Source: Armatimonadota bacterium
GTDB lineage: Bacteria; Armatimonadota; Fimbriimonadia; Fimbriimonadales; Fimbriimonadaceae
DNA: 50,417 nucleotides
Direction of reading: 5' to 3'
Assembly (NCBI GenBank): GCA_021413725.1
Contig: JAIOPU010000035.1
Span: 1 to 50,417, forward strand
Part shown: positions 2,989 to 50,417 of the stretch, one piece after another
Layout: each line of letters begins with the position of its first letter
How positions within the stretch are numbered: the stretch's first letter is position 1
The notes under the pieces: generated by a model
What the model saw: the letters and a program-made list of their open reading frames with translations, nothing else
Database searches by the model: none
Told to the model about the DNA's origin: nothing
Translations under genes and position numbers: made by a program

Positions 2989-4605
2989 ATGATTCTCGGT
3001 AGCATTCTTTTCGCCTCGCTCGCACTCGGCGCACCTACGGCCAGCCCAATCTCCATCGTCCCCCGTCCTACCTCGATCGAATTTGGTACAGGAGCCTTTC
3101 AAGTTGATTCAAAAACATCTATCGTGGCCGCACCCAAGGCAAGGGGGACCGCGAAGTACCTGCAGTCAGTTCTGCGTCCTGCGACCGGGTTTGACTTCGA
3201 AATCAAGACTAAGGGCGCGGGCGGAATACAACTTGTCCTTGACCCAAAACTTACGACTCTCGGTGAGGAAGGTTATCTACTGGTCTCGAATCCGAAAGGA
3301 GTTTTGATTAGCGCAAGCACTCAAACCGGTCTCTTCTATGGAGTCCAAACTCTCCGCCAACTCCTTCCGACCGAGATTTTTCGTGCCTCAAACCAAACGA
3401 CAAAGTGGGCAGTGCCAGCCGTTACCATTGAGGATAGTCCTCGCTTTGGTTGGCGCGGGGCGCACCTGGATGTTGGTCGGTATTTCATGCCCAAGGAGTT
3501 CGTGCTGAAATACATTGACCTCCTCGCAGTCCACAAAATGAACATGTTCCACTGGCATCTCACCGAGGATCAGGGCTGGCGAATTGAAATCAAAAAGTAC
3601 CCCCGACTTACGGAAGTAGGAGCTTGGCGCAAAGATTCGATGCTGACCTATTCTCCAGAGACTTACTCAGGCAAGCCGCACGGCGGGTTTTACACTCAGG
3701 AAGACGTGCGGGAGATCGTCGCGTACGCCGCCGAGCGCCATATCACCGTGATGCCGGAAATCGAGATGCCCGGTCATGCCCAAGCTGCGATCGCCGCTTA
3801 TCCGGAGCTTGGAAACACGGGAAAACAACTTGAGGTTTACACCAAATGGGGAGTGAGTAATGACGTGTTTAATACCGAGCCAAAAACGATCCAATTTTTG
3901 CAAGATGTTTTGACGGAAGTTATGGAACTCTTTCCTTCCAAATTTATTCACATCGGAGGAGATGAGTGCCCTAAAAGCCAGTGGAAGACGAGTAAATCGG
4001 CTCAAGCGAAAATTAAGGAATTGGGCCTCAAAGATGAACACGAACTGCAGTCCTGGTTCATCAGCCAAATGGATAAGTTCCTTACGTCCAAAGGTAGACG
4101 GTTGATGGGATGGTCAGAAATCCTTGAAGGCGGCCTCGCCCCCGGCGCAACGCTTATGGTATGGCTGGGTGATGATGGTGCCCTCGCCGCCTCTGGAAGT
4201 GGCCACGATGTAGTGATGGCTCAGAATGCCCACACCTACTACGACCACTACCAAACCGACAAGCGCGACACAGAGCCCTGGGCTATCGGCGGCAATCTTC
4301 CACTTGAGAAGGCCTATGCCTACGAACCAATCCTCCCCCAAATGTCTGCCGAACAAGCCAAGCACGTCCTGGGTGTACAAAGTCAGTGCTGGACAGAGTA
4401 TATGCCGGACGAGAAGAGAGTTGAGTATATGGTGTTTCCTCGGGCGTGTGCGATGAGTGAAATTGGCTGGACTCAGCGCGACCTGCGCGACTACCCAGAC
4501 TTCTCGAAGAGGATGGACACTCATCTCCAAAGGCTCACCAATCTCGATGTGAACTACCGTGGGCGGGGGAATTCTTACCCGTATCCTTTAAAATACATTA
4601 AGTAA
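2989..4605 (+). CDS. Beta-N-acetylhexosaminidase, GH20, exported
   Basis: A 538-residue glycoside hydrolase family 20 enzyme that removes terminal beta-GlcNAc or GalNAc. A short signal peptide (MILGSILFASLALGAPTA) is followed by the GH20b-like N-terminal domain to about residue 150 and then the TIM barrel. Key stretches are FHWHLTEDQGWR (187-198), the PEIEMPGH loop near 256-263, and the catalytic pair Asp325-Glu326 in HIGGDECPK. A Trp-rich C-terminal region (VWLGDD, SQCWTEY) completes the pocket. All catalytic residues are present. A TAACCT box nine bases before the ATG is the likely -10. It may supply GlcNAc from chitin, peptidoglycan or glycoproteins to the kinases encoded further right. 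Confidence 0.93.
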   Translation: MILGSILFASLALGAPTASPISIVPRPTSIEFGTGAFQVDSKTSIVAAPKARGTAKYLQSVLRPATGFDFEIKTKGAGGIQLVLDPKLTTLGEEGYLLVSNPKGVLISASTQTGLFYGVQTLRQLLPTEIFRASNQTTKWAVPAVTIEDSPRFGWRGAHLDVGRYFMPKEFVLKYIDLLAVHKMNMFHWHLTEDQGWRIEIKKYPRLTEVGAWRKDSMLTYSPETYSGKPHGGFYTQEDVREIVAYAAERHITVMPEIEMPGHAQAAIAAYPELGNTGKQLEVYTKWGVSNDVFNTEPKTIQFLQDVLTEVMELFPSKFIHIGGDECPKSQWKTSKSAQAKIKELGLKDEHELQSWFISQMDKFLTSKGRRLMGWSEILEGGLAPGATLMVWLGDDGALAASGSGHDVVMAQNAHTYYDHYQTDKRDTEPWAIGGNLPLEKAYAYEPILPQMSAEQAKHVLGVQSQCWTEYMPDEKRVEYMVFPRACAMSEIGWTQRDLRDYPDFSKRMDTHLQRLTNLDVNYRGRGNSYPYPLKYIK

Positions 4606-4658: not shown

Positions 4659-6305
4659 ATGAAATCATTACTCAGTATCGCCCTCTTGCTCGGATTTACG
4701 AGCATCTCATTTGCTCAAAAGGACATCGTTTTGGAAGAGGTCGAGGGTGTTGATCCGCCGAGACCTCGACCGATCGAACTGACTTCACCCCCGATGAATA
4801 TCCTCGCCCGGGGCGGCATCAGCATCTATCAGGTCAATGTCAACGCGGCTGGACAGAACATCATCGGGGATGCCGCCAACGAGCCATCGCTCACGGTGGA
4901 CCCTTCCAATCCGAATCGCATTGCGGCTGGCTGGCGGCAATTCGCAAGTATCACTTCCAACTTCCGTGAAGGCGGTTACGGCTGGTCCACCGATGGCGGA
5001 GTGACTTGGCAGGCGGATAAGCATACACCAGGACTTTTCAGAAGCGACCCCGTTCTAGAAACCACTAGCGCTGGAGTGTTCCACTACAACAGTCTTCAGC
5101 AAACGTTTTTCTCGGACGAGTTTCGCTCCAGCAACTACGGGGCAAGTTATTCCCTGCTCGGACCCGCCACGGGCGGAGATAAGCAGTGGATTGCCATCGA
5201 CAAAACCACCCTCGCCAGCAACGGGAACATTTACCAGTGGTGGAGCACGGCTGGAAACAATTACAGCGGACGCCAGTTTAGCCGAAGTATTGATGTGACC
5301 CCAAACATGAGCGGCGATATCATTAACGGAAGGTCCATCAACCCGGGCGGACTCGCTGGACAAATGAGTTGCGTCGCTGATACCGGGAATGGTCCGACCG
5401 CAGGCAATGTCTATATGATGGGCACTTTGCAGCGAGACGTGGGTAGCGAACTCGACGTGATGTTTGTCCGTAGCTCGAACCAAGGCGTTTCCTTCAGTCC
5501 TGCCGTCCGCATCAACGATGACCCGGCCGGGCAGGGCCATAGTCACTGGTTCGGAACTCTCGCCGTCGCACCAAACGGCCGTCTCGACGCCATTTGGTTC
5601 GATACCCGCATCGACGCGTCCAAAATAAAGTCTGCCCCGTTCTACTCGTATTCCCTCAATGGCGGGACTACGTGGTCGGCGAATGAGCAGATCGCACCGA
5701 TGTTTGACCCCCTGATCGGATGGCCCCAGCAGAACAAAATTGGCGACTACATCGGAGTGCTTTCGACGAATAATTTCGCCCAGTGCATTTTTCCCGCCAC
5801 ATGGAACGGCGAGCAAGATGTTTACTTCGCTCGAATCCCTGCCCCGGATATCCTGGTCCAAGGGAATATCATTCCTGCCGATTGGTCAATCACTCGTGCC
5901 GGATTGGTCGCAACGATTTCGGTTTACGATGCGGCAAATAACCTCAAGCAAACCGCAAGCGCAACGCTAGACGCCGCCGGACACTACCAGTTTGCGCTGG
6001 ATCAGAATCTGGCCCATCTATCGCTCAAGATAAAGGTCAAACTGAGCCATTGGTTGCGTAAAACGGTTTATAACGGAACGGTGGGGCTAGCTGGGCTAAC
6101 TACTGCGACTCAGACGCTCATTAATGGCGACGTGGACAACGGCAACGAAGTTGATTTGACGGATTACACGCAACTTCTCGTTGCGTTCAACGCCACCGTC
6201 GTTGATGGAAACTGGAATCCATCCGCAGACCTCAACGGAGATGGAATCGTAGACCTCACGGATTACACGGTCCTAGTGTTCGCGTTTAACGGAGTTGGAG
6301 ACTAA
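4659..6305 (+). CDS. Secreted sialidase-like (Asp-box) protein with C-terminal dockerin-like domain
   Basis: I chose the ATG at 4659 because it opens a clean signal peptide (MKSLLSIALLLGFTSISFAQ); an upstream in-frame ATG at 4614 would bury it. The 548-residue product has Asp-boxes such as STDGGVTW (110-117) and SLNGGTTW plus a degenerate SSNQGVSF, which point to a sialidase-type beta-propeller. I cannot see the sialidase Arg triad with confidence, so enzyme activity is unproven. From about residue 400 a small beta domain carries SHWLRKTV. It leads into two EF-hand loops (DVDNGNEVDLTD, DLNGDGIVDLTD) typical of type I dockerins. The same C-terminal module recurs in three other proteins of this window. 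Confidence 0.82.
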   Translation: MKSLLSIALLLGFTSISFAQKDIVLEEVEGVDPPRPRPIELTSPPMNILARGGISIYQVNVNAAGQNIIGDAANEPSLTVDPSNPNRIAAGWRQFASITSNFREGGYGWSTDGGVTWQADKHTPGLFRSDPVLETTSAGVFHYNSLQQTFFSDEFRSSNYGASYSLLGPATGGDKQWIAIDKTTLASNGNIYQWWSTAGNNYSGRQFSRSIDVTPNMSGDIINGRSINPGGLAGQMSCVADTGNGPTAGNVYMMGTLQRDVGSELDVMFVRSSNQGVSFSPAVRINDDPAGQGHSHWFGTLAVAPNGRLDAIWFDTRIDASKIKSAPFYSYSLNGGTTWSANEQIAPMFDPLIGWPQQNKIGDYIGVLSTNNFAQCIFPATWNGEQDVYFARIPAPDILVQGNIIPADWSITRAGLVATISVYDAANNLKQTASATLDAAGHYQFALDQNLAHLSLKIKVKLSHWLRKTVYNGTVGLAGLTTATQTLINGDVDNGNEVDLTDYTQLLVAFNATVVDGNWNPSADLNGDGIVDLTDYTVLVFAFNGVGD

Positions 6306-6347: not shown

Positions 6348-7541
6348 ATGCGAAATTTTAGCGTTGCTCTCGCCGCTTTGCGGGAGCAAAAATCCCGCGC
6401 CCTCCTGAGCGCTCTTGGGATTGCGGTTGCGGCGGTCGCGATTATTCTCCTTGTCAGCATCGCCTTGGGTGTCCGCCAAGATATCAAAGGTCAGGTCGAA
6501 GACTTGGGCGTGAGTACCCTCGTTGTCCTACCCGGAAAGGTCGATTTCGGCACTTTCAACCCCAACATCGGAGGACAAAGTTACCTCAAAGAAGAGCAGG
6601 CGATAGCGGTGAGACAGGTTGCAGGCGTGGTGCGTTCTTGCCCGATGACCTTCGTAGGGGGTGGTATACGAGCGAACAAGAAGGACGCCAACCCGTTTAT
6701 CGTCGCCACCACTTCCAACTGGTTTATGATGCGCCCAATGCAAATGAGGTCGGGAGACGTTTTTCGCGACCCGGATACCAAGGAACGAGTTGCCGTGATC
6801 GGTAGCATCGCATCGGATCAACTTTTTGGCGACAACGTGGACCCGGTGGGCAAAATGCTGAATGTCAACGGGCATGAGTACAAAATTCTTGGCGTGACCT
6901 TCGACAAGAAAACTGAAGGTAGCTTGTTCAGCATGGGCAGTCTTCAGAACGTGGTTTACATCCCGTTCCACGCCCAAAAGGCCATCACCCCTGAGTTGCA
7001 AGTCGACCGCATTATGATCCAGAGCGCTTCGGATGCGGACCCCAAGGTTCTCATTCCCGCGCTCACTAAGACCTTCAAACAGTTTCTCGACGAAAAGCAG
7101 TTTTCAGTCCTTACTCAGGAGGATCTGCTGAATCTGGTTTTCAAAGTCATGAGCATTCTGCAATGGCTCCTGCTGGGGCTCACTTCGATTGCACTCTACG
7201 TGGGCGGAATCGGCATCATGACCGTGATGCTCATGTCCGTCAATGAGCGCTCCAAGGAAATCGGAATCCGAAAGACCGTCGGTGCCACGCGCAAGGATAT
7301 CTTCCAGCAGTTCATGGTCGAAGCGGTTGCTCTCGCAATACTCGGCGGTCTCGCTGGGCTGATCTTTAGCTCGATCGTCGCCTATCTCCTTACCATTTTC
7401 ACGCCGATCAAACCACTGATCACCCTCGGCGTTGTCGCCCTATGCTTTGGCACTTGTCTTGTGGTCGGACTCACCTTCGGTCTCATCCCCGCTGTCCGTG
7501 CTTCACGAAAGGACCCCGTTGACGCGATGCGAAACGAATAA
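6348..7541 (+). CDS. ABC transporter permease, MacB/FtsX family
   Basis: A 397-residue permease. The first membrane helix is at about 18-40 (LLSALGIAVAAVAIILLVSIALG). A long extracytoplasmic MacB_PCD-like domain follows (about 45-250). Three helices sit at the C-terminus with the FtsX-type signature GGIGIMTVMLMSVNERSKEIGIRKTVGATR, the cytoplasmic loop that contacts the ATPase. Such proteins work with a LolD/MacB-type ATP-binding subunit in macrolide, peptide or lipoprotein export and act mechanically rather than as channels. No ATPase gene is adjacent, so the partner must be encoded elsewhere. It is convergent with the two-component genes. Confidence 0.9.
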   Translation: MRNFSVALAALREQKSRALLSALGIAVAAVAIILLVSIALGVRQDIKGQVEDLGVSTLVVLPGKVDFGTFNPNIGGQSYLKEEQAIAVRQVAGVVRSCPMTFVGGGIRANKKDANPFIVATTSNWFMMRPMQMRSGDVFRDPDTKERVAVIGSIASDQLFGDNVDPVGKMLNVNGHEYKILGVTFDKKTEGSLFSMGSLQNVVYIPFHAQKAITPELQVDRIMIQSASDADPKVLIPALTKTFKQFLDEKQFSVLTQEDLLNLVFKVMSILQWLLLGLTSIALYVGGIGIMTVMLMSVNERSKEIGIRKTVGATRKDIFQQFMVEAVALAILGGLAGLIFSSIVAYLLTIFTPIKPLITLGVVALCFGTCLVVGLTFGLIPAVRASRKDPVDAMRNE

Positions 7542-50234: not shown

Positions 50235-50417
50235 TTAGTCTTCGTCTACGCCGTTGAAGTTGACGACAACTTCAGTATAGTCGCTCAAGTCAACTGCTCC
50301 GTCTCCGGTAACATCAGCTTCCTTGGGCTTGTGGCCATCGGCGCCGACGACGTCCCATGTGAGGTCTGTAGACACCGCATTAAAGTACGTCACGACGACT
50401 GTGTAGTCCGTCAAGTC
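50235..50417 (-). CDS. C-terminal dockerin-like domain of a fourth secreted protein, cut by the right edge
   Basis: The last 60 residues of a minus-strand gene that starts beyond the window; stop TAA at 50237-50235. It begins within the first EF-hand (DLTDYTVVVTYFN) and has the second as DVTGDGAVDLSDYTEVVVNFNGVDED. The Asp/Asn positions 1, 3, 5 and 12 of the loop are kept as in the three other dockerin-like proteins here. The insert GADGHKPKE between the helices is longer. The rest of the protein is unknown. Confidence 0.85.
   Translation of the reverse strand, partial: DLTDYTVVVTYFNAVSTDLTWDVVGADGHKPKEADVTGDGAVDLSDYTEVVVNFNGVDED

Follow-up and report, generated by a model that had tools for sequence, protein, structure and literature searches.

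A beta-domain and dockerin module with a genome-specific code on exported proteins of Armatimonadota: a candidate docking tag

The window analysed here, a contig of 50,417 nucleotides (50 kb), encodes exported proteins that differ in their N-terminal parts and end in the same pair of EF-hand repeats. Orphan dockerins, for which no cohesin is present, are a long-standing observation, and the locus raises the question of what such a module does on many exported proteins of a genome in which no cohesin is detected. We followed the module from the window to its draft genome (3.13 Mb, 87.7% complete), its class and its phylum.

One C-terminal module in the window and across the genome

Three window proteins with unrelated N-terminal parts (a BNR/Asp-box region in P0001, an NHL-like propeller in P0002 and none recognised in P0003) share one C-terminal module of two domains and 145 residues (Table 1). 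To confirm it, we used a profile made from the other modules of the genome, with the window's own modules excluded. The whole modules of P0001, P0002 and P0003 scored 150, 160 and 152 bits, respectively, compared to 5.6 bits for the best of 300 shuffled controls. The motifs SHWLRKTV, SHWLRKKV and DYWITKKV are present as given in the preliminary description, and DLTDYT/DLSDYT occurs twice. The same EF pair also ends the gene at the right edge, where it scores 71 bits with this profile; here, only the EF pair is visible at the end of the contig. The order of a beta domain followed by an EF pair was likewise recovered, whereas the spacer of 20–30 residues that had been described between them was not: these residues are the last strands of the beta domain, and the EF pair follows directly.

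Table 1. Features of the window, in window coordinates
Feature	Position	Strand	Remark
GH20 hexosaminidase	2989–4605		flanks P0001
P0001	4659–6305	+	exported; signal peptide, BNR/Asp-box region, C-terminal module
X-like beta domain of P0001	5856–6122	+	SHWLRKTV; match to beta-domain profile
21-base unit, two copies	5868–5909		within the start of the P0001 beta domain
EF repeat 1 of P0001	6129–6194	+	code motif DLTDYT..LLVAFN
EF repeat 2 of P0001	6228–6293	+	code motif DLTDYT..LVFAFN
MacB/FtsX permease	6348–7541		flanks P0001
P0002	13757–15055	+	exported; NHL-like propeller, C-terminal module
X-like beta domain of P0002	14609–14866	+	SHWLRKKV; beta-domain profile
EF pair of P0002	14867–15046	+
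P0003	18432–19688	+	exported; C-terminal module, then an unusually long tail (~25 residues)
X-like beta domain of P0003	19185–19442	+	DYWITKKV; beta-domain profile
EF pair of P0003	19443–19619	+
EF pair of the fourth tagged protein	50235–50417	-	contig edge cuts the gene

Two minor features of the window concern P0001. A 21-base unit is repeated within its beta domain, and the gene possibly forms a small glycan-use cluster with the neighbouring hexosaminidase and permease.

About 69 proteins of this 3.1-Mb genome end in the module, nearly all at the extreme C-terminus; the stop codon lies 4–6 residues past the last Phe-Asn in 59 of the 65 modules with a visible stop. The Dockerin_1 profile yields 57 matches in the genome, all but one above the cut-off. 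A profile restricted to the beta domain yields 70, of which 69 are real and one is spurious, as judged by reading the genes. An EF pair follows every real beta-domain match whose contig continues. Dockerins lacking the beta domain are few (on contigs C49, C266 and C255, and the first one on C280), and the one on C49 keeps DLTDYT. Such proteins had been named as evidence against a shared two-part module; nearly all dockerin proteins of the genome have the beta domain, and the claim stands.

By a crude test, 53 of the 64 proteins with a complete start carry a signal peptide. The recognised cargo comprises subtilases, an M12B protease and MAM, P-domain, WD40, NHL, TIG and Ig-like domains. Among the 25 of 60 families listed (proteases, propellers, Ig/TIG), there is no glycoside hydrolase or cellulase cargo, single exceptions being possible. 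The suggestion of a sorting or anchoring tag for a family of exported proteins fits all of these findings, and that of a role in maturation finds no support in them.

The module is present in 62 of the 113 genomes of the class and in 96 of the 291 genomes of the phylum; a genome holds either a few copies or many. Complete counts give 31–73 copies for five genomes and 16 for another, and ten genomes from a distant family are each rich in the module. In other sequence collections, the sole match is to dockerins of Clostridium sp. DSM 8431, which have DLSDYT in repeat 1 alone and no such beta domain, and nothing was found in viral contigs.

Class of the dockerin and search for a cohesin

Members of the Dockerin superfamily (PF00404) have a pair of F-hand repeats, in which calcium is bound at positions 1, 3, 5, 9 and 12, and the EF pair agrees with this: positions 1 and 12 are nearly invariant, and positions 3 and 5 are mostly D/N. 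The preliminary description spoke of type I dockerins; the PDB matches place the module nearest to type II dockerins with an X-module instead. The best sequence matches of the whole module are the X-module/type II dockerin dyads of cellulosomal scaffoldins (1e-15 to 4e-10), and these alignments cover the beta domain as well as the dockerin. Dockerin-only chains rank below the dyads, and the best of these, 2y3n, is itself classed as a type II dockerin (PMC8063739). With a second alignment, made from modules of eight genomes, the order of PDB matches is nearly unchanged.

The beta domain alone matches the X-module of ScaA at 4e-5, and its W-L-R-K aligns with the Y-L-x-R strand of X-modules. NOMO2 is found at a score similar to that of the ScaA X-module, and seven of eight cross-lineage modules also match CarboxypepD_reg (PF13620). 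Because of these last two matches, the fold is most likely of the carboxypeptidase-regulatory type that is common to X-modules. An AlphaFold2 model of the module from the three window sequences has a pLDDT of 43 and contains six strands, in the beta domain only. All real beta-domain matches with enough contig have this Ig-like domain directly upstream of the dockerin.

The module thus resembles the dyads of CipA/ScaA (2b59, 3kcp, 4wi0, 4u3s), which have the same C-terminal combination of an Ig-like, carboxypeptidase-regulatory-like beta domain and a two-repeat dockerin; the resemblance is one of architecture and sequence rather than of proven orthology. The solved dyads bind type II cohesins of cell-surface proteins through an intimate X-dockerin interface, and a role in surface attachment is known for their relatives (PMC5141474). 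However, the dyads occur on one or few scaffoldins, together with type II cohesins, whereas the module described here is found on ~69 proteins, with no cellulase cargo seen and no cohesin detected.

The cohesin profile (PF00963) has no match in the genome itself and none above the cut-off in the 113 genomes of the class. Across the phylum, it exceeds the cut-off in 32 of 291 genomes and never in the 48 that are rich in the module (at least seven module matches, as tallied from the search tables). At E<=10, nine module-rich genomes yield only scattered fragments and nothing consistent. Since the same profile works in this phylum, we conclude that the absence of cohesin is real as far as sequence detection reaches; the statement that no cohesin is seen, made for the window, extends to the genome, the class (0/113) and the module-rich genomes (0/48). 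The 32 cohesin-positive genomes, none of them module-rich, may hold classical docking systems. In module clusters of seven genomes, no common neighbour gene appears among the leading matches apart from the tagged proteins.

Genome-specific residues in the EF pair

We compared 50 modules of the genome with 9–20 modules from each of eight other genomes. The beta-domain motif is common to several genera, and the EF-pair motif differs by genome (Table 2). In each repeat, the residue is most informative about the genome (by mutual information) at positions 17, 14, 10, 13, 11 and 21; the calcium ligands 1 and 12 carry no such information. The six positions are uniform within a genome and different between genomes. 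When columns were chosen on half of the modules and the other half was assigned, the code columns identified the genome in 99.2% of cases (chance 11%), compared to 31% for the best beta-domain columns. This code is the central feature of the module and is not visible from one window.

Table 2. EF-pair code by genome
Genome	Code
G000 (own genome)	DL[ST]DYT..VV..FN
G044 (same genus as own genome)	DIADY[ST]..LA..FD
G080	IGDYA..LS..FG
G076	N.ADFL..LR..FG
G079	TIFDYL..LS..FD
G111	L.DLN..VL..FG
G046	DAADID..VI..FG
G098	DDADLL..VL..FG
G108	DDSDLA..VL..FG
Distant family, three species	TLFDFG..LV..FG

Part of the code falls on positions known from other dockerins. Cohesin specificity has been assigned to positions 10, 11, 17, 18 and 22 (PMC5748583), with 10 and 11 also named as determinants in PMC8063739. 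The species-uniform signal is strong at 10, 11 and 17, moderate at 18 and weak at 22, so that lineage signal at the known cohesin contacts 18 and 22 is lower than at 13, 14 and 21. Species of one genus use different codes (G047 and G046; G044 and the genome studied here), and thus the code switches fast; these switches could be dated.

Within the genome, EF pairs have a mean identity of 61% and beta domains of 23%. Such a difference would also be expected if the module were a passive calcium-binding cap that merely stabilises the C-terminus, the uniform EF pairs being a relic of recent amplification or gene conversion. Codon use at the invariant EF residues is near background, and the diversity of synonymous codons there disfavours gene conversion. 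The diverse codons also speak against the cap, as do two further observations: most of the uniform positions do not ligate calcium (ligands 1 and 12 show no lineage signal), and the code of orthologous cargo changed in concert. We consider a passive cap very improbable, and it is disfavoured already.

The last observation comes from cargo orthologues recognised by their N-terminal parts (59%, 54%, 53%, 50% and 47% identity), which bear the code of the host genome. For instance, the subtilase on C27 has orthologues in G044 (59% identical) and in G082 (47%), each with its host's code. The same is seen for the M12B protease on C113 (50% identical in G046, with the G046 code) and the subtilase on C133 (53% identical in G074, with the G074 code). 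Because these orthologues bear the host's code, the codons are diverse and the beta domains have drifted, the code has changed in concert on old, separate genes. Selection by a shared binding partner would produce this pattern.

A candidate receptor and its place among known systems

The rewriting, species by species, of predicted contact residues on all tagged proteins points to a receptor outside the cell. From the sequence evidence, we think that the module is probably a docking tag at the C-terminus, similar in kind to X-module/dockerin dyads, for a receptor that co-evolves with the code. The tagged proteins would be exported, and calcium would fold the EF pair outside the cytoplasm. The two EF helices may then attach to a single receptor, or to several receptors with a common specificity in each species, located at the cell surface or in the extracellular matrix. 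Proteases, propellers and other tagged proteins would thereby be held at the cell interchangeably, with the X-like domain acting as a rigid stem and stabilising the EF pair. In this scheme, the receptor would take the role of cohesin; it would either have diverged beyond the reach of the cohesin profile or have no relation to cohesin. More tentatively, and with some doubt on our part, this could be a cohesin-free form of dockerin docking, in which a new surface receptor family of the class reads a two-fold symmetric species code and gathers ~70 proteins per cell. Counting against a docking tag are the negative cohesin searches, module clusters that have no neighbour gene in common besides the tagged proteins, and the lower lineage signal at positions 18 and 22.

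The symmetry of the code is strong. The position profiles of the two repeats have a rank correlation of 0.96, and the two repeats of one module have matching residues at 80% of the code positions, compared to 17% when repeat 1 is set against repeat 2 of another genome. The EF pair may have two equivalent binding orientations. A uniform and two-fold symmetric code would be explained equally well if EF pairs bound one another and the tagged proteins formed a matrix or coat, where all copies must match and change together; self-association would also account for a receptor that is not detected in cohesin searches. Cohesins, however, are the partners of known dockerins, including the dyads that are the closest relatives with solved structures. 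Furthermore, the code could hardly drift if each copy were both ligand and receptor, yet two species of the same genus differ. We thus regard self-association as rather unlikely.

The code could also reflect the fit to an export machine (type II, type IX or similar) that reads the EF pair as a secretion signal. The module does lie at the extreme C-terminus of signal-peptide proteins, and a possibly secretin-like piece is present in each of the nine genomes searched, but the type IX translocon SprA/Sov, the partner of T9SS C-terminal domains, is above the cut-off in none of nine module-rich genomes. Known export signals are generally less strongly species-coded, and we know of none that is coded as strongly as this EF pair, which makes a secretion signal quite unlikely. 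This piece matches SprA positions 592–689 (e.g. G000:C80:2244-2531) and lies in proteins of ~850–1200 residues.

Returning to a docking tag read by a receptor, several known systems share some of its properties. In cellulosomes, too, many enzymes of a genome carry one common type I dockerin, whose recognition residues are specific to the species in each of the two repeats (PMC5748583, PMC3413522). The module described here belongs to another sequence class, nearly always has a beta domain attached and is borne by proteases and propellers; the searches for a cohesin gave none. The hypothetical 'Planctosome' of freshwater Planctomycetes is a non-cellulosomal docking system that likewise includes M12B peptidase cargo; there, cohesin domains occur in the same genomes (PMC6461901), whereas none was found here. 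GC-type dockerin-anchored proteins (NCBIfam NF041540) also carry a dockerin that is treated as an anchor by the family name, and the modules stay below the cut-off of 29 bits for this family, with 12.6, 18.2 and 11.5 bits for the window proteins.

Our literature search returned no dockerin system described for this phylum. Taken singly, orphan dockerins, X-dockerin dyads and species-specific recognition have all been described before; what is new, to our knowledge, is their combination, with ~70 X-dockerin-tagged proteins in the absence of cohesin and a concerted species code. The sequence record indicates that a reader of the dockerin exists, names the residues that would be read and offers natural swaps in the form of orthologues with different codes, and therefore a search for the receptor is directly doable. 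If the proposal is true, the module and its receptor would be a second docking pair, outside cellulosomes, and would help to explain the organisation of the cell surface in a poorly studied bacterial group.

Lastly, PEP-CTERM/exosortase systems likewise mark dozens of exported proteins per genome with a short tag at the C-terminus, but that tag is a signal of 24 residues, in contrast to the two domains and species code found here. The two tags do not replace each other: PEP-CTERM is present in 105 of the 113 genomes of the class, including module-rich ones, and the idea of mutual replacement was rejected. The genome studied here encodes at least 68 PEP-CTERM proteins alongside the ~69 dockerin-tagged ones, and thus has two C-terminal tag families in one secretome.
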